NCBI GenBank assembly: GCA_018725565.1
Contig: QLUR01000001.1
Location: 124,001 to 188,000 of the forward strand
Source: Bacillota bacterium
GTDB lineage: Bacteria; Bacillota; Dethiobacteria; Dethiobacterales; Dethiobacteraceae
Length of the DNA: 64,000 nucleotides
Direction: 5' to 3'
A program made the translations under genes and the position numbers. Below, one piece after another: positions 4,621 to 25,998 of the stretch (its first letter is position 1; the number at the start of each line of letters is the position of its first letter). The notes under the pieces were generated by a model. The model ran no database searches. It was given only the letters and a program-made list of their open reading frames with translations, and was not told the origin of the DNA.

Positions 4621-4736
4621 TTTTATCCGCCGGGAAATACAAAAATAGATTTCCGGGAGAAAAGGAAAAAGTGTCGTTTTCGCGAATATAAACTTGCCGT
4701 AGAGGTAATTAATCTCCGAGAGAGAGGAGAAAAACC

Positions 4737-7660: not shown

Positions 7661-7725
7661 CCTGCCCTTTTCCTTGTCAGACCCTGCAGAGCGCCCGCTT
7701 TGCTGAGATTTAAGGAGGCTGTTTG

Positions 7726-10374: not shown

Positions 10375-10392
10375 ATTTTCAGGGGTGAAACA

Positions 10393-11709
10393 TTGAACTA
10401 CCAAGAAGCGCTGGCCTGGATCCACAGCCTGTACCGCTTTGGTTCCAAGCCCGGACTGGAGCGGATTGCGGACCTTCTTAAACGACTGGGAGACCCGCAT
10501 CAGCTGCTGCGCTCTGCACATATTACCGGAACGAACGGCAAAGGCTCGACGGCCGCTTTTTTGGCGGCTCTGTTGTCAGCCCACGGTTTGCGTGTGGGCC
10601 TGTATACATCGCCGTACCTGGAATCGTTTACCAATCGCATGGCTGTAGACGGACGTGACGTGGCAGAGGACGAGCTGGTCGACCTGGTGAAAAAGGTGCG
10701 GCCGCACGTGGCTGAAATTGCCGATTCCGCTTTCGGGCAGCCTACGGAGTTTGAGGTCATCACAGCCATGGCTTTTGACTATTTTGCCGCATGCTTGCCG
10801 GACTGGGTCGTGGTGGAAGTGGGGCTAGGCGGCCGGTTGGATGCCACTAACGTAATTATGCCGGAGGTAGCGGTAATTACTAATATTGGCTTGGAGCATA
10901 CTCAGGTCTTGGGCGATACGGTCGAGCAGATCGCTTTTGAGAAAGCCGGAATTATCAAACAGGGAGTCCCTGTGGTTACCGCGGCGGACAAGCCGGAAGC
11001 GCTTGCCGTACTGGAAAAGACGGCGAGGAAGCGGGGGAGCCGGTTGCTGGCCGTAGGCCGTGAAGTACAGATCGAAAGTGCCGGGACAACGCTGGACGGT
11101 CAGATTTTTAATTACCAGAGTCCTTGGCGGGAACTGAAGGGTTTAAGTATCGGGCTGCTGGGCCGTCACCAGTTGGTCAACGCCGCCAGTGCGCTGGCGG
11201 CGTTGGAATGCCTGCCGTCTGTCCCCATTAGTGAAGCGGCTGTCCGGAGAGGGTTGGCTGCCGCCCGCTGGCCGGGCCGTCTGGAGATTTATTCCCGTAA
11301 CCCGCTGGTGCTGGTGGATGGTGCCCATAACGTGGATGGGGCGTTAGCCTTGCGCCGGGCTTTAACGGAATTGCTTGATGGTCGGAAACTGTACCTGGTT
11401 CTTGGCATCCTGGCTGACAAGGCGGTGGAGGAAATGCTTTCCCTGCTGGCCCCACTTGCTACCGCCGGCCTGCTGGCAACCCGCCCGGACAACGTGCGGG
11501 CTGCCGATCCTTATGTTGTGGCGGAACTGGCCCGCGCCTATACGAGGGCAACTGTCCAGGTGACGCCAAATGTTCCCGCAGCGCTGGAAGCGGCGCTCTC
11601 CGCCGCCAAACCGGAGGAAGCGGTTTGCGTGGCCGGTTCTTTGTATACTGTCAGCGAAGCCTGTGCAGTATTGCGCAAGGTCTTTGACAAAAGCCGGCCG
11701 CTATTTTAA
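10393..11709 (+). CDS. folC: Bifunctional folylpolyglutamate / dihydrofolate synthase
   Basis: Mur-ligase-family enzyme that adds glutamates to folate and in many bacteria also makes dihydrofolate. The 438-residue protein has the N-terminal ATP-binding HITGTNGKGSTAAFL motif, the GLGGRLDATNVI stretch and the C-terminal DGAHNVDGALALRRAL region. TTG 10393 is preceded by AGGGGTGA. The valS-folC order is conserved in many Bacillota. A 106-base A+T-richer gap follows before the rnf operon. Confidence 0.95.
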   Translation: MNYQEALAWIHSLYRFGSKPGLERIADLLKRLGDPHQLLRSAHITGTNGKGSTAAFLAALLSAHGLRVGLYTSPYLESFTNRMAVDGRDVAEDELVDLVKKVRPHVAEIADSAFGQPTEFEVITAMAFDYFAACLPDWVVVEVGLGGRLDATNVIMPEVAVITNIGLEHTQVLGDTVEQIAFEKAGIIKQGVPVVTAADKPEALAVLEKTARKRGSRLLAVGREVQIESAGTTLDGQIFNYQSPWRELKGLSIGLLGRHQLVNAASALAALECLPSVPISEAAVRRGLAAARWPGRLEIYSRNPLVLVDGAHNVDGALALRRALTELLDGRKLYLVLGILADKAVEEMLSLLAPLATAGLLATRPDNVRAADPYVVAELARAYTRATVQVTPNVPAALEAALSAAKPEEAVCVAGSLYTVSEACAVLRKVFDKSRPLF

Positions 11710-11815
11710 ATGTGAGAAGTGTAACAGATGAAAGCGAATTAGGCAGGATTTATGCAAAATATCACGAAGATTTTAAAGTTGCCATTATCAAATGTTTTAG
11801 AGGGGTGAGTTAAGC

Positions 11816-13141
11816 TTGAGTTTTAAAACGTTCAGGGGAGGTGTCCATCCCGGGCATTACAAGAATGCGACGGAAAAAATGCCCGTGGTGCCGGCTCGCT
11901 TGCCGGCAGTGGCGATCATCCCTATGGCGCAGCATATCGGTGCGCCATGTGAGCCCTTGGTTGCTGTCGGCGATGAGGTAAAAACGGGGCAGAAAGTTGG
12001 TGACAGTCAAGCCTTTGTGACCGCTCCTGTCCATTCCTCTGTTTCGGGAAAGGTTGTCAAAATCGCTCCCTGCAATCATCCGTTGGGGCGCCTGGTTAAT
12101 GCAGTCTACATTAAGTCGGACGGGGAAGATACCTGGCATGAAGACGTGCGTCCGCATCCGGACTGGGAACAAGCCAGCCCCGATGAATTGAGAAAAATTG
12201 TCCGGAACGCGGGTATTGTCGGGATGGGCGGAGCCACTTTCCCGACGCATGTCAAGCTGTCACCGCCGCCGGGCGCAAAAATTGACTATTGTCTAGTTAA
12301 CGGTGCTGAGTGCGAACCGTATCTGACCTCCGACCACCGGGCCATGCTCGAACGGCCGGCTGAAATTATCACGGGTTTAAGAATTATTATGAAAGCTGTT
12401 AACGCTCCCAAAGGATATATCGGCGTGGAGGACAATAAGCCGGACGCCGTGGAGGCCATGAAAAGAGCCGCCGCAGGTCTGGCTGATGTTGAAGTTCACG
12501 CTTTGCATACCAAGTATCCGCAAGGAGCGGAAAAACAGCTGATAAAAGTTTTTACCGGCCGGGAGGTTCCTTCCGGGGGGCTGCCTTCCGCGGTTGGGTG
12601 TGTGGTGCATAATGTAGGCACCTGTATTGCCATTGCCGATGCGGTTTGTTCCGGCAAGCCTTTGATTGAAAGGATTGTCACAATTACCGGCTCAGGCATC
12701 AATGAGCCGAAAAACATGCTGGTACGTGTCGGCACACCTATGGAGGAAGTGATTGAACAGTGCGGCGGGTTTAAGCCCGATGTCCGTAAAGTCATTCTTG
12801 GCGGGCCGATGATGGGCCTGGCCCAGCCGACTGTGGAGAATTTTCCGGTGATCAAGGGCACCTCGGGTATTCTTTGTCTGACCAGCCTGGAGGTGGAGCT
12901 GCAAGCCTTCAGTCCCTGTATCAGGTGTGCGCGGTGTGTGGATGTCTGCCCGGTCAGCATCATGCCACTGTTCATCGGCTCCGCGGTGGAACAGGGACTG
13001 TACGACCGGGCCGAGTCAGCCAATGCCATGGACTGTATTGAGTGCGGCTGCTGTACTTATGTTTGTCCGTCTAAACGGCCGCTGGTCCAATGGATCCGCT
13101 TGTCCAAGGGAGATATAGCCGACAGGCGGGCTAAAAAGTAA
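11816..13141 (+). CDS. rnfC: Rnf complex subunit C (NADH-side subunit)
   Basis: RnfC is the soluble NADH/FMN- and Fe-S-containing subunit of the ferredoxin:NAD+ oxidoreductase that pumps Na+ or H+. The 441-residue protein has the SLBB-type N-terminal region (FRGGVHPGHYKN), a GMGGATFPTHVK nucleotide/FMN-binding segment and two [4Fe-4S] motifs: Cys368-371-374-378 and Cys407-410-413-417. TTG 11816 follows GAGGGGTGAG at good spacing. It leads the rnfCDGEAB run. I looked for a promoter in the 106-base leader and found none I would call. Confidence 0.95.
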   Translation: MSFKTFRGGVHPGHYKNATEKMPVVPARLPAVAIIPMAQHIGAPCEPLVAVGDEVKTGQKVGDSQAFVTAPVHSSVSGKVVKIAPCNHPLGRLVNAVYIKSDGEDTWHEDVRPHPDWEQASPDELRKIVRNAGIVGMGGATFPTHVKLSPPPGAKIDYCLVNGAECEPYLTSDHRAMLERPAEIITGLRIIMKAVNAPKGYIGVEDNKPDAVEAMKRAAAGLADVEVHALHTKYPQGAEKQLIKVFTGREVPSGGLPSAVGCVVHNVGTCIAIADAVCSGKPLIERIVTITGSGINEPKNMLVRVGTPMEEVIEQCGGFKPDVRKVILGGPMMGLAQPTVENFPVIKGTSGILCLTSLEVELQAFSPCIRCARCVDVCPVSIMPLFIGSAVEQGLYDRAESANAMDCIECGCCTYVCPSKRPLVQWIRLSKGDIADRRAKK

Positions 13142-13162
13142 TTCGACAAGGAGGGAGAAAGG

Positions 13163-14095
13163 GTGGAAGCAAAGCTCGTAGTTTCGTCTTCGCCACATCT
13201 GCGCAGGCCGGAATCAGTCCAAAGCGTTATGATTGATGTTCTGGTGGCCTTATTCCCGGCCGCTTTGGCCGGCGTGATTTTCTTCGGGTGGCGTGGCCTT
13301 CTGACCATGATGCTCGGCATGCTTGCAGCCATGGTTGCGGAGGCTGTGGTGCTGAGACAAAAAAACATTTTTGGGGACGGCAGCGCTGCTGTAACCGGTC
13401 TGCTGCTGGCCTTGACGCTGCCGCCGGCACCTCCCTGGTGGCTGGTGGTCACCGGCAGTGTGGTGGCGATTGTGATTGGCAAACAAGTTTTTGGAGGGAT
13501 CGGCAACAATATTTTTAACCCTGCTTTGGTTGGGAGAGCTGTACTGGTGGTCTCCTGGCCCGCGCATATGACGACTTGGCTGCGCCCGCTTGATTTGGCT
13601 ACAGCGGCCACGCCGCTGGCGCCCGGGGCGGAGCCAGCCAGTCTGTTCAATCTTTTTGTCGGCGCCGTCCCCGGCTCCCTTGGCGAGACGAGCGCTTTTG
13701 CCCTGTTGCTGGGGGCTGCCTGGCTTTTTTACAAGGGACTTATTGACTGGCGCATTCCTGGAGGGTATCTTGGCACAGTCTTTCTCATGGGCGCATTTTT
13801 TGACGGCACCGGCACGCTGCCGGAGATGTTCTCCAGGGGACTGTTTCACCTGTTGGCCGGCGGCGTCATGCTCGGCGCGCTGTTTATGGCCACCGACATG
13901 GTAACCTCACCGGTGACTGCCTTGGGCCGCCTGATTTTCGGAATTGGCTGCGGCCTGGTGACTATGCTGATTCGCTTGTTCGGTGCTTTCCCGGAGGGAG
14001 TTACTTTTGCCATTTTGCTGATGAACGCGCTGACCCCGCTGCTCGATAACTTGACGCTGCCCAAGAAATTCGGGGAGGTGGCAAAACTGCAATGA
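13163..14095 (+). CDS. rnfD: Rnf complex subunit D (membrane flavoprotein)
   Basis: Integral membrane subunit that carries covalently bound FMN and is thought to form part of the ion path. The 310 residues contain about eight to nine hydrophobic segments. The DLATAATPLA stretch matches the position of the flavinylation site of RnfD/NqrB, with Thr150 the likely FMN acceptor. GTG 13163 follows AAGGAGGGAG. The stop overlaps the rnfG start (ATGA). ApbE, the enzyme that attaches such flavins, is encoded about 11 kb downstream on the same strand. Confidence 0.95.
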   Translation: MEAKLVVSSSPHLRRPESVQSVMIDVLVALFPAALAGVIFFGWRGLLTMMLGMLAAMVAEAVVLRQKNIFGDGSAAVTGLLLALTLPPAPPWWLVVTGSVVAIVIGKQVFGGIGNNIFNPALVGRAVLVVSWPAHMTTWLRPLDLATAATPLAPGAEPASLFNLFVGAVPGSLGETSAFALLLGAAWLFYKGLIDWRIPGGYLGTVFLMGAFFDGTGTLPEMFSRGLFHLLAGGVMLGALFMATDMVTSPVTALGRLIFGIGCGLVTMLIRLFGAFPEGVTFAILLMNALTPLLDNLTLPKKFGEVAKLQ

Positions 14096-14622
14096 AGGAA
14101 ATCGTCAGACTGGCCATAATTTTGATGCTGATTACGGGACTGGCTGCCGGGTCGCTGGCCTACGTCAACCAGATAACCTCTCAGGTGATTGCGGAGCGCG
14201 AAGCGCAAGAAAAGATTGCTCTGATACAGAAGATTTTCCCTGAAGCGGCAAGATTCGAAGAAAAAACGATAGACGGACTGACAGCCATGCTGGCTTTGGA
14301 CGCCGCAGGCCAGGCGGTCGGGCTGCTCACGGAGGGCAGCGCTGCCGGCTACGGCGGTCCCATCACGTTTAGCCTGGCGGTGGACGGTGCAGGAAAAATT
14401 GTCAGCGTGGGCGTTACTTCCCACACGGAAACGCCCGGAATCGGCGACATAATAGCAGAGCGGTCTTTCCTGGACCAGTTTACGGGGAAAACTGCGGCCG
14501 ACCCGCTGACAGTGGGTCAGGATATCGACCATATCACCGGCGCCACCGTTTCTGTCGAGGCGATGGCGGATGGTGTCCGGCAAGTATTGCCGGCGACGGT
14601 TTCCCGTTTTTTGGGTAAATGA
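14092..14622 (+). CDS. rnfG: Rnf complex subunit G (covalent FMN-binding)
   Basis: RnfG has one N-terminal membrane anchor and an extracytoplasmic FMN-binding domain. The 176-residue protein shows an anchor at about residues 5-23 and the flavinylation motif ITGATVS with Thr152 as the acceptor, the pattern recognised by ApbE. It overlaps rnfD by 4 bases. It is followed by a 78-base spacer holding a palindromic repeat. Confidence 0.95.
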   Translation: MKEIVRLAIILMLITGLAAGSLAYVNQITSQVIAEREAQEKIALIQKIFPEAARFEEKTIDGLTAMLALDAAGQAVGLLTEGSAAGYGGPITFSLAVDGAGKIVSVGVTSHTETPGIGDIIAERSFLDQFTGKTAADPLTVGQDIDHITGATVSVEAMADGVRQVLPATVSRFLGK

Positions 14623-14646
14623 GTTGGGAGAGGGGAATTAAGAAGT

Positions 14647-14687
14647 GCCCTCACCCGGCTTCTCCCAGAGGGAGAGGGGAATTAAAG
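14647..14687 (+). repeat. Palindromic spacer repeat, copy 1 (rnfG-rnfE gap)
   Basis: This 41-base element fills the rnfG-rnfE gap and matches the element at 15302-15342 in 37 of 41 positions. Its core is an inverted repeat (CTTCTCCC / GGGAGAGG around AGA) that can fold in RNA with a G-U pair. Part of it (TGGGAGAGGGGAATTAAG) also occurs just upstream at 14625-14642, so the spacer looks built by duplication. It lies entirely between genes. Confidence 0.85.
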
Positions 14688-14700
14688 TGGAGGTGAAAAA

Positions 14701-15297
14701 ATGAGCCCGCTTAAGGCTTTATTGAACGGCTTTAAAGAAATCCCGCCCCTGCGCTTGGTGCTCGGTCTGTGCCCGGTGCTGGCCGTGTCGGCGTTTGCGG
14801 AAAACGGCTTTGGCATGGGCCTTGCCGCCACGGCGGTGCTGATCGGTTCCAACCTGGTGATCAGCGCCTTGCGCAACGTGATTCCGGATAAAATCCGCAT
14901 CCCCTGTTTTATTGTGGTAATCGCCACCTTTGTTTCCATCGTCGATATGACGCTTAATGCCTTTATGCCGGCGCTGCACGCTGAGCTAGGTATCTTTGTG
15001 CCGCTGATTGTGGTTAACTGTATTATCCTCGGGCGGGCGGAAGCGTTTGCCTCCAAAAACGGTGTCCTTAGTTCCATCGCTGACGGCATCGGCGTAGGAC
15101 TGAGCTTTACTTTTGCCCTGACATTGCTGAGCGCTATTCGAGAGCTGCTCGGCGCCGGCACTATTTTCGGAGTCAGTGTCCTTGGCGAGGCGTACCAACC
15201 GTTCAGAGTGTTCGGGTTCCCGCCCGGCGCTTTTATTGCGCTGGGCTTGATGCTGGCCTTTTATAATATGCTGGCCAAGAAATATAAACTGGGGTAG
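14701..15297 (+). CDS. rnfE: Rnf complex subunit E
   Basis: Polytopic membrane subunit of the Rnf complex, homologous to RnfA and NqrD. The 198-residue protein has about six transmembrane segments, with paired half-repeats in inverted topology known for this family. The Cys in VVNCIILGRAEAFA lies in the region that in RnfA/RnfE supplies ligands to the intramembrane iron-sulfur cluster. ATG 14701 follows GTGGAGGTGAAAAA. The usual order (E before A) holds, but spacers on both sides contain the same 41-base repeat. Confidence 0.95.
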   Translation: MSPLKALLNGFKEIPPLRLVLGLCPVLAVSAFAENGFGMGLAATAVLIGSNLVISALRNVIPDKIRIPCFIVVIATFVSIVDMTLNAFMPALHAELGIFVPLIVVNCIILGRAEAFASKNGVLSSIADGIGVGLSFTFALTLLSAIRELLGAGTIFGVSVLGEAYQPFRVFGFPPGAFIALGLMLAFYNMLAKKYKLG

Positions 15298-15301
15298 AGG
15301 C

Positions 15302-15342
15302 GCCCTTGCCCGGCCTCTCCCAGAGGGAGAAGGGAATTAAAG
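15302..15342 (+). repeat. Palindromic spacer repeat, copy 2 (rnfE-rnfA gap)
   Basis: Second copy of the 41-base element at 14647-14687, with four substitutions. The palindromic core CTCTCCC-AGA-GGGAGAAG and the tail GGGAATTAAAG are retained. It ends just before the rnfA ribosome-binding site (AGGAGG). Confidence 0.85.
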
Positions 15343-15358
15343 AAGGAGGCTGCCGGCT

Positions 15359-15934
15359 ATGGAATTGATAGCCATTATTTTCGGGGCGATCTTTATTAAT
15401 AACTTTGTGCTTTCGCGTTTCCTCGGGCTTTGCCCGTTTGTGGGCGTTTCCCGCAAGGTGGAAACAGCCCTTGGCATGAGTATGGCCGTTGTTTTTGTCA
15501 TGGGGATGACGGCCGTGGTAACCTGGCCTATCGAGCATTTCCTGCTTGTCCCCAATGACTTGCAGTACTTGCGCACGATTGTCTTTATCCTGGTCATCGC
15601 TACGCTGGTCCAGTTTGTGGAGCTGGTGGTGCGCAAAATCAGCCCCGCGCTGTACCAGGCGCTGGGTATTTTCCTGCCGCTGATTACCACCAACTGTGCC
15701 GTACTGGGCGTGGCTATCCTTAATATCACGCTGGAATACAACCTGCTGGAGTCCGTAGTGTTCAGTGTTGCAGCCGCCGTTGGCTTTGCCTTGGCACTGC
15801 TGATTATGGCCGGTATCCGCGAACGCCTGGAGTTCTCGTTTGTGCCGCTTCATTTTAAGGGGATTTCCCTGGCGCTGATTATGACCGGAATTCTTTCACT
15901 GGCTTTCTCCGGATTTAAAGGGATGTTGGAATAG
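15359..15934 (+). CDS. rnfA: Rnf complex subunit A
   Basis: Polytopic membrane subunit, homologue of RnfE and NqrE. The 191-residue protein has about six membrane segments, begins with the typical IFINNFVLSRFLGLCPFVGVS stretch (Cys near residue 25) and later has TTNCAVLGVAI; these two Cys regions are the family's conserved ligand positions. ATG 15359 follows GAAGGAGGCTGCCGGCT. rnfB follows after 14 bases. Confidence 0.96.
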   Translation: MELIAIIFGAIFINNFVLSRFLGLCPFVGVSRKVETALGMSMAVVFVMGMTAVVTWPIEHFLLVPNDLQYLRTIVFILVIATLVQFVELVVRKISPALYQALGIFLPLITTNCAVLGVAILNITLEYNLLESVVFSVAAAVGFALALLIMAGIRERLEFSFVPLHFKGISLALIMTGILSLAFSGFKGMLE

Positions 15935-15948
15935 GGAGGCGAAGAAAC

Positions 15949-16728
15949 ATGATTATCGCCATTGTCAGCCTGGGGGGCCTCGGCCTGCTCTTTGGCGGCC
16001 TGTTAGCCTTTGCGGCGCGAAAGTTCGCCGTGGAGGTAGATCCCCGGGTGGAAATGACGCAAAGTTACCTGCCGGGCGCTAACTGCGGGGTCTGCGGCTA
16101 TGCCGGGTGCGCCCAGTACGCCGAGGCGGTGGTGGCCGGCGGGGCGCCGCTTAATGCCTGTACCCCGGGCGGCTCCGAAGTGTCCAAAAATATCGCCGGG
16201 TTGCTTGGCATGGAGGCGCCTGCGGCGGAAGCCAGGCTCGTAGCGCAGCTGGTCTGTCTTGGAGACTGCGAGACGGCCAAGGACAAAGCTGTATATGACG
16301 GCTTCAGAGAATGCAAGGCGGCGTTGATGTTCGGCGGCGGCGTGAAAGCCTGCCGCTTCGGCTGCGTCGGTGAAGGCAGCTGTGTGCGCAGCTGCCCGGT
16401 GGAGGCCATCACCATGAGCAAGAACGGTTTGCCGCTGATTAACCATAAACTGTGCATCAGCTGCGGAAAATGCAAGAACGTTTGCCCGCGCCAGGTAATC
16501 GAGATGGTCAGTGCCAATATGCTCTATCATGTGCGCTGCAAGTCGCTGGACAAGGGCAAGCAGGTCCGGGATATCTGCTCCCGTGGCTGCATTGCCTGCA
16601 ACCTGTGTGCGAAAGAGTGCCCGGTCAAGGCCATTCGCCTAGAGAACAACCTGGCGATTATTGACGGCTTGATCTGTAACAACTGCGGCACCTGCGTAGA
16701 GGTTTGCCCGCAAAAGACTATTGCCTGA
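15949..16728 (+). CDS. rnfB: Rnf complex subunit B (ferredoxin-side Fe-S subunit)
   Basis: RnfB accepts electrons from ferredoxin and passes them to the membrane part. The 259-residue protein has an N-terminal membrane anchor (residues 2-20) and a CGVCGYAGC motif followed by a further Cys, typical of the RnfB-specific cluster. Several ferredoxin-type sets follow: GSCVRSCPVEAI, CISCGKCKNVCP, CIACNLCAKECP and CNNCGTCVEVCP. ATG 15949 follows AGGGAGGCGAAGAAAC. This completes rnfCDGEAB; moaC begins 14 bases downstream. Confidence 0.95.
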   Translation: MIIAIVSLGGLGLLFGGLLAFAARKFAVEVDPRVEMTQSYLPGANCGVCGYAGCAQYAEAVVAGGAPLNACTPGGSEVSKNIAGLLGMEAPAAEARLVAQLVCLGDCETAKDKAVYDGFRECKAALMFGGGVKACRFGCVGEGSCVRSCPVEAITMSKNGLPLINHKLCISCGKCKNVCPRQVIEMVSANMLYHVRCKSLDKGKQVRDICSRGCIACNLCAKECPVKAIRLENNLAIIDGLICNNCGTCVEVCPQKTIA

Positions 16729-16742
16729 CAGAGGGAGCAAAG

Positions 16743-17255
16743 ATGGAAAGGCTGACGCATCTGAACCGGGAAGGCAGGGCCAGGATGGTCGATGTTTCCG
16801 GCAAGGAGGATACGCCGCGTGAAGCGGTGGCCCGGGGGCGCGTCCAGATGCGCCCGGAAACGCTGAAACAGATTGCCGCCGGCAGCCTGGCCAAGGGTGA
16901 TGTGCTGGCCGTTGCCCAGGTTGCGGGAGTGATGGCTGCCAAGCAGACGGCACAGCTGATTCCCATGTGCCATCCACTTTTGCTGACGGCGGTGGATCTA
17001 AAATTTACCACGGACACGGCCGGGAGCGCGCTGGTGATTGAGGCTGCCGTGAAAACGGCCGGTAAAACGGGCGCGGAGATGGAAGCGCTCTTTGCCGTGG
17101 CCGTGGCGGCTCTGACCGTTTACGACATGTGCAAGGCCGTGGACAGGGAAATGGTTATCAGCCAGGTCTGCCTGCTGGAAAAGCGCGGCGGCAAATCCGG
17201 CGACTTCAGACGGAGTGAAGAGGGCGGCGAAAATGTGCATCAGGAAAGAGAATAG
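16743..17255 (+). CDS. moaC: Cyclic pyranopterin monophosphate synthase MoaC
   Basis: MoaC converts the MoaA product to cyclic pyranopterin monophosphate in molybdenum-cofactor synthesis. The 170-residue protein has the KQTAQLIPMCHPL substrate loop and the MEALFAVAVAALTVYDMCKAVD active-site helix. ATG 16743 is chosen over an earlier in-frame ATG inside rnfB because GAGGGAG precedes it and the N-terminus (MERLTHLNREGRARMVDVSGK) is canonical. No other cofactor gene is in the window, and it lies oddly between rnf and the antiporter module. Its 3' end overlaps the next gene. Confidence 0.95.
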   Translation: MERLTHLNREGRARMVDVSGKEDTPREAVARGRVQMRPETLKQIAAGSLAKGDVLAVAQVAGVMAAKQTAQLIPMCHPLLLTAVDLKFTTDTAGSALVIEAAVKTAGKTGAEMEALFAVAVAALTVYDMCKAVDREMVISQVCLLEKRGGKSGDFRRSEEGGENVHQERE

Positions 17256-17742
17256 GACTTTTTGGGCTACTTTTGGCTTGCTCCTGCTGTTTTGGCTGCT
17301 GATTACCTGGCGCCTGCACTGGCAGCACCTGTTAGTTGGGGTGATCTGTTCCTGGGCTGTTGCCATGATCAACCGCGATTTGTTGCTGCAGCCGGCGGAG
17401 CGGCCGCTGCTGCTCCTAACCACAGCCAGAAAATGGGTACAGTATTTTTGCCAGTTGTTGGCAGCCATTTTTAAAGCCAATTGGGATGTGGCCAGAATTG
17501 TGCTTAAGCCGAAGCTGGAGATTTCGCCCAGCTTCGTCAGGTACAGGACGAGGGTCGGTAAACCTTTTAACAGGCTGATACTCGGCAATTCCATTACCCT
17601 GACGCCCGGCACGCTGACGGTGGAGATTGCTGAAGACACGTACGTGGTACACGCTATTACGCGTGCCGCTGCCGAGGACTGCGCCGAATGGGAAATGATG
17701 AACAGGCTCGCCGAAATAGAGGAGGTGGAGCGGGGTGCTTGA
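17233..17742 (+). CDS. mrpE: MrpE/MnhE-type (MbhA-like) Na+/H+ antiporter subunit
   Basis: Small membrane subunit of Mrp-type cation/proton antiporters; the same family is MbhA in archaeal membrane-bound hydrogenases. About 169 residues, with two hydrophobic N-terminal segments and a cytoplasmic domain containing ILGNSITLTPGTLTVEI, the MrpE hallmark. ATG 17233 (AGAGGG eight bases upstream) is preferred to GTG 17215; either start overlaps moaC. It begins a tightly packed run of eight genes. Confidence 0.9.
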   Translation: MCIRKENRTFWATFGLLLLFWLLITWRLHWQHLLVGVICSWAVAMINRDLLLQPAERPLLLLTTARKWVQYFCQLLAAIFKANWDVARIVLKPKLEISPSFVRYRTRVGKPFNRLILGNSITLTPGTLTVEIAEDTYVVHAITRAAAEDCAEWEMMNRLAEIEEVERGA

Positions 17743-18001
17743 GACAGTATTTGTCGCTTTTGCTGTTTTGCTTTCAGCGGCTACTTTTCTTTGCCTGTTC
17801 CGCGCTGTGCTTGGCCCCTCAGCCGCTGACCGCGTGGTGGCCATCAATGTTATCGGCACCAAGGCGGTGGTCATCATTTCCCTGATTTCTTTTGCTTTTC
17901 ACCAGGAGTACTTCCTGGACGTGGCCATTGTCTACGCTTTAATCAGTTTTGTGGCTACTGTCGGGATAGCCAAGTATCTGGAAAAAGGATCCCTGGAATA
18001 G
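17735..18001 (+). CDS. mrpF: MrpF/MnhF-type (MbhB-like) antiporter subunit
   Basis: Three-helix membrane subunit of Mrp-type antiporters. The 88-residue protein has the FRAVLGPSAADRVVAINVIGTKAV motif typical of MrpF. The GTG start overlaps the mrpE stop by 8 bases and follows GGAGGTGG. The 9-base gap to mrpG indicates co-translation. Confidence 0.92.
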   Translation: MLETVFVAFAVLLSAATFLCLFRAVLGPSAADRVVAINVIGTKAVVIISLISFAFHQEYFLDVAIVYALISFVATVGIAKYLEKGSLE

Positions 18002-18010
18002 GGGGAGCTT

Positions 18011-18343
18011 ATGGAAATTTTAGTAATTATTTTTTTGCTGGCCGGGATGTTCTTTTTTGTGGTCGGGGTAGTCGGTCTGCTCAGGCTGCCTGATGTCTAT
18101 TGCCGCCTGCACGCTACCACTAAATGTGATACGCTGGGCGCCGGACTGATTCTTTTTGGCCTCGTTCTTTTTGCAGGTATTTCCGTGGACAGCGTCAAAC
18201 TGTTGCTGATAATCCTGTTTATCTGGCTGACCAACCCCACCGCCTCCCACATTATCGCCCATGCCGCTTACCGCAACAATGAACCGACTGCTGAAGGAAC
18301 CCATACGCTGGATAAGACGGAGAGGGGAGCGGCCTGTGACTGA
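18011..18343 (+). CDS. mrpG: MrpG/MnhG-type (MbhC-like) antiporter subunit
   Basis: Small three-helix Mrp subunit. The 110-residue protein contains GLLRLPDVYCRLHATTKCDTLGAGLIL, the MrpG signature, and TNPTASHIIAHAAYR. ATG 18011 follows TAGGGGGAGC. It overlaps the next gene by 8 bases. Confidence 0.92.
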   Translation: MEILVIIFLLAGMFFFVVGVVGLLRLPDVYCRLHATTKCDTLGAGLILFGLVLFAGISVDSVKLLLIILFIWLTNPTASHIIAHAAYRNNEPTAEGTHTLDKTERGAACD

Positions 18344-18575
18344 GCTGCTCCAATACCTGCTGATGTTGTTTTTGGTCGTCTGTGCCGTAGCGGTGGCCCG
18401 GATCCGTGACCTGCTGGCAGCAGTGATTATATTTGCGGCGTACAGCCTGGTAATGGCCATCCTCTGGCTGTTGCTGGCCTCTCCTGATATCGCCATTACC
18501 GAGGCGGCGCTCGGCGCCGGGGTGACGACGCTGCTGCTGCTGGCGGCTATCAGCAAGACGAGGAGGGAAGAATGA
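18336..18575 (+). CDS. MbhD-like subunit (MrpA C-terminal-type, DUF4040 family)
   Basis: A 79-residue, three-helix membrane protein resembling MbhD and the part of MrpA beyond its NuoL-like region (DLLAAVIIFAAYSLVMAILWLLLASPDIAITEAALGAG). The Glu in ITEAALGAG is a conserved membrane acid of this family. GTG 18336 is preferred over an upstream ATG because AGAGGGGA precedes it. In classical Bacillus Mrp this segment is fused into MrpA; here it is a separate gene, as in Mbh/Mbs complexes. Confidence 0.82.
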   Translation: MTELLQYLLMLFLVVCAVAVARIRDLLAAVIIFAAYSLVMAILWLLLASPDIAITEAALGAGVTTLLLLAAISKTRREE

Positions 18576-18844
18576 TGCGCAAAATCCTGATAGTCTTGTT
18601 ATTGCTGCTGATTGGTCTGGCCCTGATTGTGACCGTGCTGGAGATGCCTACCTTCGGTGAAGCAGGTAACCCAACCAACAATGAGGTGCCGGAGCGCTAC
18701 CTGGAGCGAAGCATCGAGGAAACAGGGGCGCTGAATGTAATCGCTAGCATTATTATCGATTACCGCGCGTTTGATACCTTAGGCGAGGCGACGGTCCTGT
18801 TTGTGGCCATTGCTGCTGCCTTTGCCACTCTGAAAGCAAACTGA
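18572..18844 (+). CDS. MbhE-like subunit (MrpA C-terminal-type)
   Basis: A 90-residue membrane protein with an N-terminal helix, a loop (PTFGEAGNPTNNEVPERYLERSIEETGALNVIASIIIDYRAFDTLGEATVLFVA) and a C-terminal helix. NVIASIIIDYRAFDTLGEATVL is the hallmark shared by MbhE and the MrpA C-terminus. ATG 18572 overlaps the preceding stop by 4 bases. It too is unfused, matching the Mbh arrangement. Confidence 0.85.
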   Translation: MMRKILIVLLLLLIGLALIVTVLEMPTFGEAGNPTNNEVPERYLERSIEETGALNVIASIIIDYRAFDTLGEATVLFVAIAAAFATLKAN

Positions 18845-18868
18845 AGCCATAAGACACGGGGTGATTTT

Positions 18869-19312
18869 GTGGAAGACCTGATTCTTCGCTACGTCAGCCG
18901 CATTGTCGTTCCTTTCGTGCAGCTGTACGGGCTGTATGTTGTGTTTCACGGGCATCTTTCTCCCGGCGGGGGCTTTTCGGGCGGGGCTATCATCGGCGCC
19001 AGCATGATTTTGTACGCTCTGGCCTTTAACCTGGCGGCGGGGACGAAGAAAATTTCCCACGATTTATCCCTGATTCTGGAAAGCAGCGGCGGCTTGATTT
19101 ATGCCGGGGTCGGGTTGCTGGCGATTTTCTTAGGCGCTAATTTCCTGGGCAATATGGTAGCCGGCTTCCCGCTTGGCACTCCCGGCAACCTGTTCAGCGG
19201 CGGGGCAATCATGCTGATTACTTTAGGGGTCGGCATCAAGGTTGCCGCTACGATGATTACCCTGTTTTACAGCCTTATTGAAGAGGAGCAAGCAACAGAT
19301 GAGCATCACTGA
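18869..19312 (+). CDS. mrpB: MrpB/MnhB-type (MbhF-like) antiporter subunit
   Basis: Four-helix Mrp subunit. The 147-residue protein has YGLYVVFHGHLSPGGGFSGGAIIGAS, the typical MrpB motif, and a second Gly-rich stretch GNLFSGGAIMLITLGVGIKVAAT. GTG 18869 follows GGGGTGA. It overlaps mrpC by 14 bases. Confidence 0.92.
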   Translation: MEDLILRYVSRIVVPFVQLYGLYVVFHGHLSPGGGFSGGAIIGASMILYALAFNLAAGTKKISHDLSLILESSGGLIYAGVGLLAIFLGANFLGNMVAGFPLGTPGNLFSGGAIMLITLGVGIKVAATMITLFYSLIEEEQATDEHH

Positions 19313-19682
19313 CGTCCTGCTGCGCCTGCATCAGAACAATTTCTATTTTTTTGCCATCCTTCTTTTTATTATCGGCTTTCATACCATGCTGACCCACAAT
19401 AACCTGATCAAGAAAGTGATCGGCATGAATATCATGGATACCGCCATCTTTCTCTTTTTCGTGGCTATCGGTTATATCCACGGCGGCCGCGCGCCGATCC
19501 TGGAGCCGGGAGCAGCTCATCTGTATGTCAATCCGTTGCCCTCCGCGCTGATTCTGACCGGCATCGTGGTGGCTGTCAGCATTACTGCTTATGCGCTGAG
19601 CCTGATTGTGAAAATTTATCAGCATTACGGGACGATTGATGCCGAGGAAATCATGCGCCTGCGGGGAGGCGAAACACTGTGA
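19299..19682 (+). CDS. mrpC: MrpC/MnhC-type (MbhG-, NuoK-like) antiporter subunit
   Basis: Three-helix subunit homologous to NuoK. The 127-residue protein contains GFHTMLTHNNLIKKVIGMNIMDTAIFLFFV and DPLP-like NPLPSALILTGIVVAVSITAYAL, the NuoK/MrpC pattern. ATG 19299 is preferred over an earlier start within mrpB because GAGGAG lies 10 bases upstream. The stop overlaps the mrpD start. Confidence 0.92.
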   Translation: MSITDVLLRLHQNNFYFFAILLFIIGFHTMLTHNNLIKKVIGMNIMDTAIFLFFVAIGYIHGGRAPILEPGAAHLYVNPLPSALILTGIVVAVSITAYALSLIVKIYQHYGTIDAEEIMRLRGGETL

Positions 19683-21166
19683 ATGCGGCGCATCATTTGC
19701 CGGTGCTGGCGATTGTCCTGCCTCTGGTATTCGCATATTTAATGCCTTTATTTGACCGCTGGCGGCGGGGCTGGTGCACGCCGGCAGCGCTCGGGGTGCT
19801 GGCGGTTTCCTTTGTTGCATCCCTGGCCATGGCCTGGCAGGTCATGACCGGGGGACCTTACTACTACCAGATGGGTAACTGGCCGCCGCCCTGGGGAATC
19901 GAGCTGAATATCGATTACTTGGCGGTTTTTACGGCGATTACCATGACGGGCGTCAGCCTGGTGGTCCTCGTCTACGCTTCCAAAGACCTGCTGCATGAAT
20001 TAAAACCCCACCTGCTCGGCTGGTACTACACGCTGTACCTGTTGCTGGTTGCTTCCATGGTAGGGATGGCGCTGACCAATGATATTTTTAACCTCTTTGT
20101 CTTTGTGGAGATTTGCGCCATTGCCGCCTGCGGCATCATCTCCATCAAGTCAAACAAAGAATGCCTGGAGGCCTCGTTTAAGTACCTGATTTTGTCGACG
20201 CTTGGCTCCGGCTGCCTGCTGCTGGCCATCGCCCTGCTGTACATGGTCACCGGCCACCTGAACTTTACTTATATAGCGCAGGCGCTGCCGGAGGCGATGC
20301 GTCTCTACCCCTACAATATTCTGGCCGCGCTGGCGCTGCTGCTGGTAGGCATGGGGGTAAAGGCGGCCCTGTTTCCGCTGCACGTTTGGCTGCCTGACGC
20401 CCACTCGTCGGCGCCGTCACCTTCATCGGCGGTGTTGTCGGGGCTGGTCATCAAAATTTACGCCGTTTCCCTGCTCAGAGTTCTGTATCAAGTCTTTCCG
20501 GCCGATATTTTCGAGGTGACGCCGGTCCTGAACATCCTGCTCTGGATGTCGACGCTGGCCATTATTGCCGGCTCCATGTTTGCCATCGTCCAGGAGGATA
20601 TCAAAAAAATGCTGGCTTACTCCAGCGTCGCGCAGATTGGCTACGTCTTTATGGGTTTTGCCATTGTGGATTTCTTCGCTCTGACAGGAGGCATCCTGCA
20701 TGTCTTTAACCATGCCATGATGAAAGCAATGCTGTTCATGGCCGCCGGCGCGTTTATTTACAGTACGGGGGTGCGGCACTTAAGCGGCTTAAAAGGCATC
20801 GGACATACCATGCCGGTCCCGGCGGTGGCTTTTGCCATCGGCGCGCTGGCCATGGTCGGCATACCCCTGACGAACGGTTTTATTTCCAAGTGGTACCTGG
20901 TGCTCGGCGCCTTGCACGACGGCCAGCCGTTTTTCGCGGCGGTTATTCTGCTAAGCAGTCTGCTGAACGGAATCTATTACCTGCCGATTATTGTGAACGC
21001 ATTTTTTAGCGAACCGCAGGGCCGGGTGGCCGCACCGCTGCCGCTGCCGCGGCAGATGCAGGTTCCGCTTATTATCCTGGGTCTGGGCTGCCTGCTGTTC
21101 GGCATTGCCCCCTCACTGATTCTGGGACTAATTTACAGAGCCAGCGAGGCACTGCTTGGTTTATAA
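19679..21166 (+). CDS. mrpD: MrpD/MbhH-type antiporter subunit (NuoN/M/L family)
   Basis: Large polytopic antiporter-like subunit with the Proton_antipo_M domain, homologous to NuoL/M/N. The 495-residue protein has about 14 membrane helices and the key ion-path residues Glu144 (FVFVEI, TM5) and Lys228 (GMGVKAALFPLHVWLPDAH, TM7). The GTG start overlaps the mrpC stop by 4 bases. It closes an E-F-G-D'-E'-B-C-D order identical to mbhA-H. A 66-base gap precedes a second paralogue. Confidence 0.92.
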   Translation: MNAAHHLPVLAIVLPLVFAYLMPLFDRWRRGWCTPAALGVLAVSFVASLAMAWQVMTGGPYYYQMGNWPPPWGIELNIDYLAVFTAITMTGVSLVVLVYASKDLLHELKPHLLGWYYTLYLLLVASMVGMALTNDIFNLFVFVEICAIAACGIISIKSNKECLEASFKYLILSTLGSGCLLLAIALLYMVTGHLNFTYIAQALPEAMRLYPYNILAALALLLVGMGVKAALFPLHVWLPDAHSSAPSPSSAVLSGLVIKIYAVSLLRVLYQVFPADIFEVTPVLNILLWMSTLAIIAGSMFAIVQEDIKKMLAYSSVAQIGYVFMGFAIVDFFALTGGILHVFNHAMMKAMLFMAAGAFIYSTGVRHLSGLKGIGHTMPVPAVAFAIGALAMVGIPLTNGFISKWYLVLGALHDGQPFFAAVILLSSLLNGIYYLPIIVNAFFSEPQGRVAAPLPLPRQMQVPLIILGLGCLLFGIAPSLILGLIYRASEALLGL

Positions 21167-21232
21167 TAGATGCAGGCCTCCTATGAAATGAGCTGGTAAC
21201 TTTTCTGACTAACATGAAAGGATCTGAAGCCC

Positions 21233-22717
21233 GTGGAAACGGCAATATCTTTTCTGCCTGTCTGGATCGTGATGTTTCCGATGTTCATGACACTGGTTAT
21301 ATACTATGTGGAACAGCGCTCCGAAAAAATGCGCAATGCCTTGTCTGTAGGGACTTCTGTGGTTACGTTTCTTTCCGTGCTGATGCTTTACCCCTACATG
21401 ATGGCCGGGGAGATCATTGAGTATAGTATGTTCCAACTGCTGCCGAACCTGGAGATTTCTTTCCGGGTCGATATCTTGAGCTTTTCTCTGGCCTTGCTGT
21501 CCTCTTTTATCTGGATGCTGGTATCTATCTATTCCATCGACTACATGTGTCATGAGCACGGCTGCAACCGTTATTACCCGGTCCTGATAATCACGCTGGC
21601 CAGTTGCATGGGCATTTTTATGGCCGGGGACCTGTTTACGCTGTTTGTCTTTTTTGAATTGATGTCCTTAATCTCCTATGTGCTTGTGGTCCACGAGGAG
21701 TCGCTTGAGGCATTGCGGGCCGGGTATAAATACCTGATTATGACTATTATCGGCGGGCTGGCCCTCTTTTTCGGCATAATTATTACTTTTGAGTTGGGCG
21801 GCTCGGTATCGCTGGGCGGAGAGACCCTGATTACCGTGCCTTCTACACTGGCTTTCTTTGCTTTTATTTCCTTCCTGATCGGCTTTGGCATGAAAGCCGG
21901 GATGTTCCCGCTGCATGTCTGGCTGCCTGATGCCCACCCTGTAGCGCCGTCGCCAGCCAGCGCCCTGCTTTCCGGCATTATGCTGAAAACCGGCGCCTAC
22001 GGCCTGCTGCGCGTCATTTTCCACGTATTCTCTCCGGGCTTATTGCAGGAAGCCGGCTGGATGATAATTCTTGCTGTGGTGGCAATTATCACCATTCTGC
22101 TTGGCTCGGCGGTAGCCATCACCCAAGACGACATAAAAAGGCGCCTCGCTTATTCCAGTGTCGGACAAATGGGCTACATTTTGCTTGGGATGTCTATTTT
22201 CACGGAACGGGCGCTTATCGGGGACATCTTTCATATTTTCAGCCACGCCTTCATGAAGAGCACCCTCTTCCTGGCAGCCGGCGCTATTATTCTGAAAACA
22301 GGCAAGCGCTCCATCCGGGAGCTGGGGGGCATCGGCCGCCTGATGCCTTTTACCATGCTTGCCTTTACCATGGCGGCGCTTTCCATGATTGGGATTCCTC
22401 CTTTAAGCGGGTTCTTAAGCAAGTGGACCTTGTCGCTTGGCGCCATGGATGCCGGCCTGCCTTATTATGTCCTGGTCCTTTTGGTCAGCAGCTTGCTGAA
22501 CGGTCTTTACTACCTGCCCATAATTATCACTGCTTTCTTCGGCGCCGAGCCTGGTCATGAGCACGAACAGGTAAAAATCAGCGAAGCGCCGTATAAAATG
22601 CTGATCCCCATCGCCATTCTTGCGGTAAGCTGCCTGTTGTTCGGCCTCTTGCCCACCAACCTGCCGTTTGACCTGTCACGTAAGGCCGCTGATTTTCTGC
22701 TGAGAGGGGGATTTTAG
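21233..22717 (+). CDS. Second MrpD/NuoM-type antiporter-like subunit
   Basis: A second 494-residue Proton_antipo_M protein. It keeps Glu142 (FVFFEL) and Lys221 (GFGMKAGMFPLHVWLPDAH) and has about 14 membrane helices. Whether it is an MrpD paralogue or stands in for the NuoL-like N-terminal half of MrpA cannot be settled by eye. GTG 21233 follows GGATCTGAAGCC; the ribosome site is weak. It is followed by a 191-base spacer before the third paralogue. Confidence 0.88.
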   Translation: METAISFLPVWIVMFPMFMTLVIYYVEQRSEKMRNALSVGTSVVTFLSVLMLYPYMMAGEIIEYSMFQLLPNLEISFRVDILSFSLALLSSFIWMLVSIYSIDYMCHEHGCNRYYPVLIITLASCMGIFMAGDLFTLFVFFELMSLISYVLVVHEESLEALRAGYKYLIMTIIGGLALFFGIIITFELGGSVSLGGETLITVPSTLAFFAFISFLIGFGMKAGMFPLHVWLPDAHPVAPSPASALLSGIMLKTGAYGLLRVIFHVFSPGLLQEAGWMIILAVVAIITILLGSAVAITQDDIKRRLAYSSVGQMGYILLGMSIFTERALIGDIFHIFSHAFMKSTLFLAAGAIILKTGKRSIRELGGIGRLMPFTMLAFTMAALSMIGIPPLSGFLSKWTLSLGAMDAGLPYYVLVLLVSSLLNGLYYLPIIITAFFGAEPGHEHEQVKISEAPYKMLIPIAILAVSCLLFGLLPTNLPFDLSRKAADFLLRGGF

Positions 22718-22908
22718 TACCTTACAGTTTTAGAACTGCAGTAGTAACAAGCAGTTATTATCCTTGCTGGAGGCACCAAAGCTGTGTAATAATCTTTGTA
22801 GTAATGCAACCAAAATATGTCGATTGAAATCCCATACCGGTTGGAATCATAAGTTGATTATTGAGGTGTGGGCAAAGCCCTCTGTGGATTAAAAGGCGGT
22901 GACTGAAA

Positions 22909-24936
22909 GTGGAGTTCTATTTATTGTTTATTCTCAGCTGTTTTATTGTTGCCCCCTTTTTGCCGCGCTTATCTGAAAAGAGGAGGCGCGGTGTACTGGT
23001 CATGCTGCTTTGCCTGATGATTTTTTTGGCCTTTTACAATCTTTCCGGTGTGGAACTGCACGATTATAGTGTTTTAGAGGAGCTTGAAGCTATGGGGCTT
23101 GCGCCGCTGGCCTTCACGGCGCATCCTTATGCCAGGATGGCTGTCTTCGGGTTTCTGCTGGTGGGAGCACTGGCCCTGATGTATGGTCTGCAGGTTGCCG
23201 GACCCAAAGAACAAGCAGTTTCACTGGTTGCTATAGCCAGTGCGGTGGGTATCGCGCTTTCCGCTAACTTTATCACCCTCTTTTTGTTTTGGGAAGTACT
23301 GACATTTTCAGTGGCGATACTGATCATGCTAAAACTGACACCGCATGCCGTAAGCATGGGTTGCAAATTTTTGATCTTCCATATCGTGGGAGGCCTGCTG
23401 TTATTTTTGGGTATTGTGCAGCATCACTCTGCCAGCGGTTCTTTTGTGCTGGAAAAGCCGGCGGCAGGACTGCTGTTCTTTGTCCTGGCCATTGCTTTTA
23501 AGGCGGCTTTCCTGCCGCTGCATGTCTGGGTGGCCTGGGGCTACCCGGCGGCTTCTCATGCTACCAGTGTAGTCCTGGCAGGGCTGACCACCAAAGTAGG
23601 GGTCTATGCTGTGGCCAGGATTTTAGAGCCACACCCGGCCATTGTCCTGATGGGAGCTTCTATGGCAGTATTTGGGATTTGCTGCGCCTTACTGCAAAAA
23701 AATATGCGCGGGCTTCTTTCATACCATATTATCAGCCAAGTTGGCTATATGGTGGCCGGGGCGGGGATGGGAGGATACTATGGGATTGACGGGAGCCTGC
23801 TGCATGTCATAAACCATATGCTTTATAAGGCGCTGCTATTTATGAGCGCGGGAGCTGTCCTACTAACGGCCGGCACGGAGGATCTGCACGACCTGAGCCA
23901 TCATCAGGGCGATAAGCAGGTGCTATCGCTGTGGAGAGTCCTGCCTGTCGCCGCACTTGGCGCGCTGGTTGGTGCGCTTTCTATCTCCGGCGTTCCCCCC
24001 TTTAATGGCTATGTGTCAAAATATCTCTTGAAGAAGGCTATGTATGGCGCTGGTCCTGCCGAGACCATGCTGATGCTGGCCAGTATTGGCACGGTAGTAT
24101 CGTTTTGCAAGTTCTGCTATTTTGCCTTTGTCAAAGGACGTGTCCCTCTGCAGCGCGGCCTGCCTGTTTCCATGCAGGCCGCTATTTTGCTTGCCTCAGC
24201 GGCCTGCGTTTTTCTCGGTATATACCCGCATGTGGTGCAGAAGATTCTCCCTTACCATTCCAGCCTGATAGTTTACAACGCAGGCGGGATTGTAAGCGCC
24301 CTGACCTTTCTAGCCGTGGGGATAGCTGTGTTTGTTGTTCTGAAAAAAACTTTGGATCGAGGAATTAATTTACCTGCCTGGCTGAGCGTGGAGCAATCCC
24401 TGTACCAGCCGCTGGCTTTTTCCCTAAAGGCCTGCTGTCACTATATCACCACGTTTGACTCCTCCTTGAATACTGCTTACGAAAAAGCCGGCGGTACGGC
24501 TAGGATCCTGATCGAGAAAACTGAGCTGTTTGACGGCGCTATCAACGAGGCTTACGAGAAATCCGGCGACCTGGCCCGGCGGCTGGCAGACAGGACGGAG
24601 CAATTTGACGGGGCATTAAATGAGGCTTACGAAAAGTCAGGAAAGTTTGCCAAACAGCTGGCTGACGGGACGCAAGCTTTTGATGCTTCTTTAAACGAAG
24701 CGTATGAAAGTTCCGGCAAGCTGGCCCGGCGCTTAGCGGATAAAGCGGCGCAGGCTGACGATACCTTGGATGACCTGTACGAGCAATCTGGTCAGAGGTC
24801 GCGCAGTTTGTGGGACAGGATGCGCGGCCGTCCTTCCGACTGGAATATCAGGAACCTGAACTTTGACTCGTTTCTGATCGCGCTGATGCTCGGCCTCTTT
24901 CTTTTCATCCTGGTTTATTTCACCGGAATCCGCTGA
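22909..24936 (+). CDS. Third antiporter-like subunit with C-terminal 25-residue repeats
   Basis: A 675-residue protein whose first ~490 residues form a divergent Proton_antipo_M domain: Glu129 (FLFWEV) and Lys198 (AIAFKAAFLPLHVWV) are kept, but the usual LPDAH after the Lys helix is replaced by VAWGYPAASH. From residue 515 to 639 come five consecutive 25-residue repeats with the pattern FDxxLNEAYEKSG then LARRLAD, rich in charged residues, followed by a last hydrophobic helix (about 652-672). This resembles in layout the lateral amphipathic helix plus terminal anchor of NuoL, though the repeat sequence is unfamiliar to me. GTG 22909 follows AAGGCGGTGA. Confidence 0.88.
   Translation: MEFYLLFILSCFIVAPFLPRLSEKRRRGVLVMLLCLMIFLAFYNLSGVELHDYSVLEELEAMGLAPLAFTAHPYARMAVFGFLLVGALALMYGLQVAGPKEQAVSLVAIASAVGIALSANFITLFLFWEVLTFSVAILIMLKLTPHAVSMGCKFLIFHIVGGLLLFLGIVQHHSASGSFVLEKPAAGLLFFVLAIAFKAAFLPLHVWVAWGYPAASHATSVVLAGLTTKVGVYAVARILEPHPAIVLMGASMAVFGICCALLQKNMRGLLSYHIISQVGYMVAGAGMGGYYGIDGSLLHVINHMLYKALLFMSAGAVLLTAGTEDLHDLSHHQGDKQVLSLWRVLPVAALGALVGALSISGVPPFNGYVSKYLLKKAMYGAGPAETMLMLASIGTVVSFCKFCYFAFVKGRVPLQRGLPVSMQAAILLASAACVFLGIYPHVVQKILPYHSSLIVYNAGGIVSALTFLAVGIAVFVVLKKTLDRGINLPAWLSVEQSLYQPLAFSLKACCHYITTFDSSLNTAYEKAGGTARILIEKTELFDGAINEAYEKSGDLARRLADRTEQFDGALNEAYEKSGKFAKQLADGTQAFDASLNEAYESSGKLARRLADKAAQADDTLDDLYEQSGQRSRSLWDRMRGRPSDWNIRNLNFDSFLIALMLGLFLFILVYFTGIR
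24451..24825 (+). repeat. Five tandem 75-base / 25-residue repeats in the third antiporter subunit
   Basis: Units start at 24451, 24526, 24601, 24676 and 24751. Units 2-4 are closest at protein level (FDGAINEAYEKSG, FDGALNEAYEKSG, FDASLNEAYESSG), while the DNA differs largely at silent positions, so the protein pattern has been kept. Units 1 and 5 are more diverged. Confidence 0.9.
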
Positions 24937-24981
24937 CACTCATCCGACATCTGACATCTGATTTGGGACGGAGCGGTTGCT

Positions 24982-25998
24982 TTGAGGAAAACGCTGTTCC
25001 CATATATCATTGCTGCTGTTATGCTGGCGGTGCTGGCAGCGGGATTGCATGCCCGGGGCGGGATGGAAAAGGTCACCCGGGCTGAGTTCCTGATGGACAC
25101 TCTCGTGCAAAGCACTGTCTTTGCCCGGGAGGCAAGCCAGGGTCAACATGCGCTGGAGGCGGCTTACCAGGAGATGTTCAGGCTGGAGAGGCTGCTGGAC
25201 AGGCACCATCCTGGCTCGGAAGTGACGCAAATTAACCGGGCAGCCGGCCGGGAGCCGGTGCCGGTTTCGCCGGAAACGCTGCTGATAATTGAGCAGGCAC
25301 TGGAGTATGCCGTGCTGACGGGCGGTGCGTTTGATATTACCGTAGGCCCGCTGTTGCGACTGTGGCGCTTCACCGACGCCGGGGGGCGGGTTCCGTCTGC
25401 GGAAAGCCTGCAGGCTGCGGCGGCGTTGGTGGACTTCCGTCAGGTTGTGGCGGACAGGCAGGCGGGCTCCGTCTTTTTGCGGAAAAACGGGGCTGAGATT
25501 GATTTGGGCGGGATTGCCAAAGGCTTTGTCGTGGACCGGGCGGTGGAAGTATTGCTCCGGTCCGGCATATCTTCAGCTTCGGTGGATGCCGGCGGCGATA
25601 TCCGTCTGCTCGGGGCCAAGCCTGACGGCAGTCCCTGGCGGATTGGAGTGCGTCACCCGCGGGAGCGGCGCGGGATTATTGCCGTCCTGGAGCTGGAGGG
25701 TTGCGCAGTCGTTACCTCGGGGGATTATGAGCGCTACTTTTTATATGGCGAGGTTCGTTACCACCATCTCCTTGACCCCGCTACCGGCCGACCGGCCGGA
25801 GGCTTGGTCAGCGTGACCGTGGTGGCGCCGGAGGCCACGACCGCTGATGCCTTGTCTACCGCGGTGTTTGTGCTGGGACGTGAGCGCGGCCTGGCGCTGA
25901 TCGAGTCCTTGCCCGGGATTGAGGCGCTCCTGGTTACCGCAGAACTGGAAGTGGTTTACTCCAGCGGGTTGGCAGGGAAGGTGACTGTCAGTCCATGA
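24982..25998 (+). CDS. apbE: FAD:protein FMN transferase ApbE
   Basis: ApbE attaches FMN from FAD to Thr residues in (S/T)GAT-type motifs of exported or membrane flavoproteins such as RnfD and RnfG. The 338-residue protein has an N-terminal membrane/signal segment (residues 6-23), then MDTLVQSTVF, GGAFDITVGPL, GGIAKGFVVD, VDAGGDIRLLG and the Mg-binding TADALSTAVFVLG stretch. No lipobox Cys is evident. TTG 24982 is the best start, with a weak GGACGGAG upstream. Its stop overlaps the next gene (ATGA). Confidence 0.94.
   Translation: MRKTLFPYIIAAVMLAVLAAGLHARGGMEKVTRAEFLMDTLVQSTVFAREASQGQHALEAAYQEMFRLERLLDRHHPGSEVTQINRAAGREPVPVSPETLLIIEQALEYAVLTGGAFDITVGPLLRLWRFTDAGGRVPSAESLQAAAALVDFRQVVADRQAGSVFLRKNGAEIDLGGIAKGFVVDRAVEVLLRSGISSASVDAGGDIRLLGAKPDGSPWRIGVRHPRERRGIIAVLELEGCAVVTSGDYERYFLYGEVRYHHLLDPATGRPAGGLVSVTVVAPEATTADALSTAVFVLGRERGLALIESLPGIEALLVTAELEVVYSSGLAGKVTVSP

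Follow-up and report, generated by a model that had tools for sequence, protein, structure and literature searches.

The third antiporter subunit of an Mrp-type gene cluster in the window, by which we mean the whole 64,000-nucleotide stretch of DNA that was analysed, ends in a tail built from five repeats of 25 residues. The tail lies where NuoL and MrpA carry their lateral helix (HL). Tails made of the same unit recur in many Bacillota, sit on two different antiporter core families, and are found once per complete operon. We consider it somewhat probable that the repeat region is an expanded, and expandable, lateral helix with docked ends and a polar rod, which would brace or tether an Rnf-linked Mrp antiporter, with one such helix per complex.

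The repeat array and its operon

The subunit is encoded by an open reading frame at 22909-24936 (+; 675 amino acids) with a Proton_antipo_M domain (PF00361). It is the last gene of an Mrp-type cluster in which MrpA is split, and which holds members of the MrpE, F, G, B, C and D families together with MbhD/MbhE-like genes and two more antiporter subunits. The features of this region are as follows.

11816..16728 (+): RnfC, D, G, E, A and B, directly upstream (RnfC_N, NQR2_RnfD_RnfE, FMN_bind, Rnf-Nqr twice; RnfB FeS and Fer4)
16704-17255: moaC, a MoaC gene between rnfB and mrpE
17215..22717 (+): rest of the Mrp-type cluster, with MrpE, F, G, MbhD-like, MbhE-like, MrpB, C, antD and ant2 (Pfam, NCBIfam)
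19679-21166 (+): antD, within the Mrp-type cluster
21233-22717 (+): ant2, directly before the repeat-bearing gene in cluster order
22909..24372 (+): antiporter core, 15 TM helices, ANT3 family (PF00361, E 8e-33; AF2 core)
24373..24453 (+): pre-linker, PAWLS...YITT
24454..24528 (+): unit 1, FDSSLNTAYEKAGGTARILIEKTEL, starting at F516
24529..24603 (+): unit 2, FDGAINEAYEKSGDLARRLADRTEQ, starting at F541
24604..24678 (+): unit 3, FDGALNEAYEKSGKFAKQLADGTQA, starting at F566
24679..24753 (+): unit 4, FDASLNEAYESSGKLARRLADKAAQ, starting at F591
24754..24828 (+): unit 5, the last, ADDTLDDLYEQSGQRSRSLWDRMRG, starting at A616
24844..24933 (+): anchor, NIRNLNFD plus TM16, residues 646-675 (AF2 model; near-core conservation)
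24982..25998 (+): ApbE FMN transferase, directly downstream of the repeat-bearing subunit (PF02424, E 6e-92)

The five units follow one another head to tail over residues 516-640 (24454-24828), and a terminal hydrophobic helix lies at about 652-674. When the 125-residue array is compared with itself at a lag of 25, 54 of 100 positions are identical, whereas no lag exceeded 0.25 in any of 20,000 shuffles, which rules out a chance repeat. Five 25-residue repeats before a terminal membrane helix, as proposed in the initial annotation, are therefore real, although its register (residues 515-639) began one residue early. Tandem Repeats Finder detected no DNA-level repeat at the array, the units being too diverged. 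Indeed, units 2-4 share 15-18 of 25 residues in pairwise comparison but only 42-54 of 75 bases, the differences falling mostly at third positions, and among them dN is 0.21-0.33 while dS is saturated or above 2. These units are thus old, and a recent DNA-level tandem expansion in the window is ruled out. The same annotation had noted that silent positions account for most differences between units, which is true of units 2-4 and less so of units 1 and 5.

The arrangement of rnfCDGEAB, Mrp-type cluster and apbE (11816-25998 in the window) is conserved across several Bacillota families, and moaC is kept between rnfB and mrpE in many, though not all, of these Rnf-Mrp operons. Several of the anaerobes that carry them come from alkaline habitats. 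A literature search, with subscription papers largely outside its reach, found no published description of an Rnf-Mrp operon.

Distribution of the repeat and exchange of the tail

The initial annotation had proposed a profile search with the repeat and a count of units in homologues. A profile of the array found repeat tails in 62 of the 98 class genomes. In a phylum-wide set of 399 genomes it found them in 26, some of which are already in the class count; the survey genomes, all Bacillota, are mostly MAGs. Wherever the profile matched, it did so at the C-terminal end of a frame that either had antiporter length or was truncated by the end of its contig, so that a repeat in other protein types is ruled out for these genomes. 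There were no plasmid-borne copies of the tail. The count gave 3-7 units per tail in 58 distinct tails (274 units). For example, the nearest named relative, a Dethiobacter MAG from the group that includes the source genome, is 70% identical and likewise has five units. Spacing is exactly 25 residues in 214 of 216 cases, and since this spacing recurs throughout the 58 tails the repeat is not a single-gene oddity. The first unit, moreover, invariably starts 27-28 residues past PxWLS. The exact spacing and the fixed start both support an expanded lateral helix.

Over all 274 units the consensus reads [FL]D-S-S-[LI]-[DN]-E-A-Y-E-K-S-G-x-A-A-R-K-L-A-x-R-T, with Y9 (94%), D2 (90%) and G13 (85%) as the best-kept positions. 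First units are more hydrophobic than later ones (0.37 versus 0.08-0.11), carry 5.2 charges as compared to 8.4-9.3, and have Cys at position 20 in 79% of cases versus 3% elsewhere. At the other end, identity of the anchor within the class comes close to that of the core (0.53 versus 0.54; 0.65 versus 0.70). A hydrophobic first unit, polar later units and this anchor conservation support the expanded-lateral-helix reading; against it, the anchor is somewhat less conserved than the core outside the class (0.36 versus 0.45).

Two core families, ANT3 and ANT4, carry the tail and are split by a 100/100 branch in the core tree; the window ANT3 core is about 30% identical to ANT4 cores. The window protein and its nearest relative have ANT3 cores, yet their tails branch with ANT4 tails from the same taxonomic family (100/99.8), and a topology in which ANT3 tails form one clade is rejected (AU p 2.9e-5). 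Similarly, over residues 1-400 the window protein matches its ANT3 paralogue at an identity of 0.61-0.76 and an ANT4 protein (G018) at 0.24-0.38. Past residue 500 the ANT3 value drops to 0.1-0.3, and over residues 621-675 the ANT4 value stands at 0.67-0.90; the crossover lies near residues 480-540 of the window protein. The paralogue on contig C58 is 63% identical in its core and has no repeats. On these comparisons the tail is a cassette moving between antiporter core families. Recent internal duplications are seen in other genomes, as in G007, where units 3 and 4 are 96% identical in DNA; these duplications and the conflict between tail and core trees also favour an expandable lateral helix.

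In complete operons exactly one subunit bears repeats. In genus g13, for example, they are found on the ANT3-type subunit and its ANT4-type neighbour has none. A complex identical but for the loss of its repeats, which the initial annotation had named as a finding that would speak against it, was not seen: among 57 genomes with an orthologous ant2 (above 540 bits), 55 have repeats and the other two have ant2 near a contig end. The single carrier per complete operon, the co-occurrence with ant2 and the repeat-free state of both core types in Mrp operons that lack Rnf support a lateral helix present once per complex. Counting against this are two orphan repeat-bearing genes of ANT4 type with no Mrp or Rnf genes nearby, at L121 (G006; 9227-11608) and L144 (G018; 3-2159).

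Other antiporter gene arrangements were also encountered. A Syntrophomonadaceae MAG (L013, 3-4835) has three tandem antiporter genes, one with repeats and two short-tailed, all three ending in a NIKNxNFD anchor helix. The source genome itself (C58:52000-71000, locus L010) contains at about 4600-16450 a second operon of Mrp type, in which the small subunits are followed by five antiporter-like ones, or six counting the first antD, and the operons of L138, L139 and L140 have four to seven antiporters. The frame of one ant2 orthologue (G065:C257:5902-7383) runs across a single in-frame TGA, which may be an error or mark a pseudogene.

Lateral-helix position and competing readings

The AF2 model has 15 TM helices and a terminal TM helix, with the tail between TM15 and TM16 as in the lateral helix of NuoL and MrpA. 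Foldseek returned MrpA, NdhF, ND5 and NuoL, all of them HL-bearing subunits, as top or near-top matches, and the loops hold 11 K/R on the tail side versus 3 on the other, which by the positive-inside rule makes the tail side cytoplasmic. Position, side and fold matches therefore support the expanded lateral helix and bear out the earlier assignment of the tail to the lateral-helix position. Neither hmmsearch nor hhalign against E. coli NuoL detected sequence similarity to its HL; sequence homology to the E. coli helix was accordingly dropped, and this result weighs against the reading.

Twenty-five residues make seven turns at 3.57 residues per turn, and the hydrophobic moment of the window array peaks at 100.6 degrees (3.58 residues per turn; 0.40 versus a shuffled maximum of 0.25). 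Each repeat would thus present the same face, as had been anticipated in the annotation, and the array has a single continuous amphipathic stripe. The hydrophobic phase carries over Gly13 with a difference of 3-28 degrees, and the tails contain hardly any proline (9 of 6575 residues). This phase fits one continuous amphipathic helix, which the tail would presumably form. The structure prediction proposed for the subunit gave a divided answer: AF2 of the tail alone returned an unbroken helix of 135 residues (490-624), albeit at a pLDDT of only 50-70, whereas in the full model the core reached mostly 70-90 and the tail about 40, with helices at 494-550 and 556-627 and a break at 551-555. The alignments behind both models were shallow (8 sequences for the full protein, 6 for the tail), and both are low-confidence for the tail. 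The moment, the phase, the rarity of proline and the single helix of the tail model all support an expanded lateral helix; the low confidence and the break argue against it.

In the mechanism that we propose, the chain past TM15 would arrive at the cytoplasmic face, where unit 1 would pack onto the membrane domain. Units 2 to n would form a long polar amphipathic alpha-helix, with seven turns per 25-residue unit, before the chain re-enters the membrane through the conserved anchor (NIxNLNFD and TM16) at a defined site. With both ends docked, the middle rod could lengthen or shorten by whole units through internal duplication. The repeat helix would then be a brace or tether, present once per Rnf-linked Mrp antiporter and outside the ion path.

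One specific form of this explanation, which we hold to be rather unlikely, names Rnf as the partner: the polar rod would attach the Mrp antiporter to Rnf, the ferredoxin:NAD oxidoreductase of the same operon, giving an Rnf-Mrp supercomplex with adjacent Na+ circuits. In an operon survey of chosen loci, as opposed to a random sample, upstream sequence was available for 19 repeat-bearing operons, and 17 of these have Rnf genes or an RnfG-like gene immediately upstream. It is this association that makes a tether to Rnf attractive. An ApbE gene lies directly downstream in nearly all repeat-bearing operons, and ApbE flavinylates Rnf subunits. Consistent with such a link, the same core families occur in seven MrpB-first operons or operon fragments that lack Rnf (L010, L134, L135, L136, L138, L139, L140), and neither ANT3 nor ANT4 cores bear repeats there. 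Against it, G017 and G077 have repeats without Rnf beside Mrp, in G114 and G230 the Rnf genes are limited to one RnfG-like gene upstream, the two orphan genes lack any operon, and a common operon is no proof of contact. It is likewise doubtful that the repeat helix is a transferable, length-adjustable Mrp-Rnf tether whose supercomplex would couple ferredoxin oxidation, Na+ pumping and Na+/H+ exchange at one site.

The main structural rival to the expanded lateral helix, itself unlikely, is a helical bundle or hairpin, in which S/T-Gly at positions 12-13 would break the helix to give an antiparallel stack or a cytoplasmic coiled-coil hairpin as a docking platform, a role that the initial annotation had also raised. 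The conservation of SG, with Gly13 present in 85% of units, would suit such breaks, and the array profile is similar to designed helix-loop-helix repeat proteins whose SG turns have a comparable spacing (E 9e-11), a likeness that also counts against the expanded lateral helix. Free variation in copy number suits a protruding stalk, and an association of Y9 with G13 across units (odds 15, p 3e-6, in a statistic that ignores kinship) suggests helix-helix packing. However, the hydrophobic phase runs on across Gly13, no consistent N-cap residue follows the Gly, and the AF2 tail model is unbroken.

The initial annotation had suggested a brace spanning several antiporter subunits. As a straight lateral brace, the five units would run along the membrane as a single helix of roughly 190 Angstrom, each of them in contact with an antiporter subunit. 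Tail position and amphipathic continuity agree with this, and MrpA and NuoL provide a precedent, but copy number makes it quite improbable. Each unit corresponds to about 37 Angstrom of helix, and within one family, on an identical operon gene set with three antiporters, there are 4 (L127, L132), 5 (L126) or 7 (L122) units; L147, L118 and L117 have only two antiporters, yet 3-5 units. Scaling of length with antiporter number is thereby ruled out, and this independence disfavours a straight brace in which all units are docked. In fact, with conserved ends and a middle whose length changes in steps of whole units, it is unlikely that each middle unit docks on a constant set of subunits, and units 2 to n are markedly more polar than unit 1. 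Finally, it is very unlikely that the tail is slack, a tolerated repeat expansion with no function of its own, as variable copy number and recent unit duplications might suggest, given the near-invariant 25-residue register, the retention of D2, Y9 and G13, a dN far below dS among window units 2-4 and the retention of the tail on core exchange.

Relation to known systems

The position and architecture of the tail, as a lateral helix, are already known. For the exact expandable repeat, the core-family exchange, the once-per-operon rule and the Rnf association, a literature search that left subscription papers largely out of reach found no description. The role of the lateral helix in complex I-type pumps is debated, with piston, brace and assembly staple all proposed. 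The repeat tails amount to a natural length experiment, in which pumps of one kind carry from 3 to 7 complete helical units and the tail stays constant while cores are exchanged. This length variation and these core swaps make it testable which parts of the helix need docking and whether length matters for coupling.

To our knowledge Rnf is a separate complex in all known systems; here it is encoded directly upstream in the same operon as the Mrp cluster. The Rnf-Mrp operon suggests that two Na+-linked machines for energy conservation in anaerobes are connected, either physically or functionally. Amphipathic-repeat proteins of the apolipoprotein and perilipin type share tandem amphipathic helical units with the tail, but the unit here is 25 residues long, and Pfam gave no accepted match for the tail, Apolipoprotein reaching only E 0.09, below its cut-off.

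The HL of NuoL/ND5/Nqo12 in complex I is likewise a long amphipathic helix on the cytoplasmic side that links TM15 to a C-terminal TM16 (PMC3274701). Unlike that helix, with which no sequence match was found, the tail is built from exact 25-residue units, and about 177 residues separate TM15 from TM16; the C58 paralogue has about 130 there, and E. coli NuoL 80. The E. coli helix 'does not have a clear conserved pattern of amino acid sequence', and removal of the NuoL C-terminus leaves a fragile, nearly inactive complex I, whereas most insertions are tolerated (PMC3274701). MrpA (PDB 7QRU, 6Z16) is among the best fold matches, and its HL, running from TMH15 to 16, 'braces the complex' (PMC7419157). 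The NuoL deletion and the MrpA brace both support an expanded lateral helix. Unlike MrpA, the window protein ends at TM16, with the MbhD/MbhE-like parts as separate genes, and the window cluster differs from Mrp antiporters in having three antiporter-type subunits and an HL expanded by repeats.
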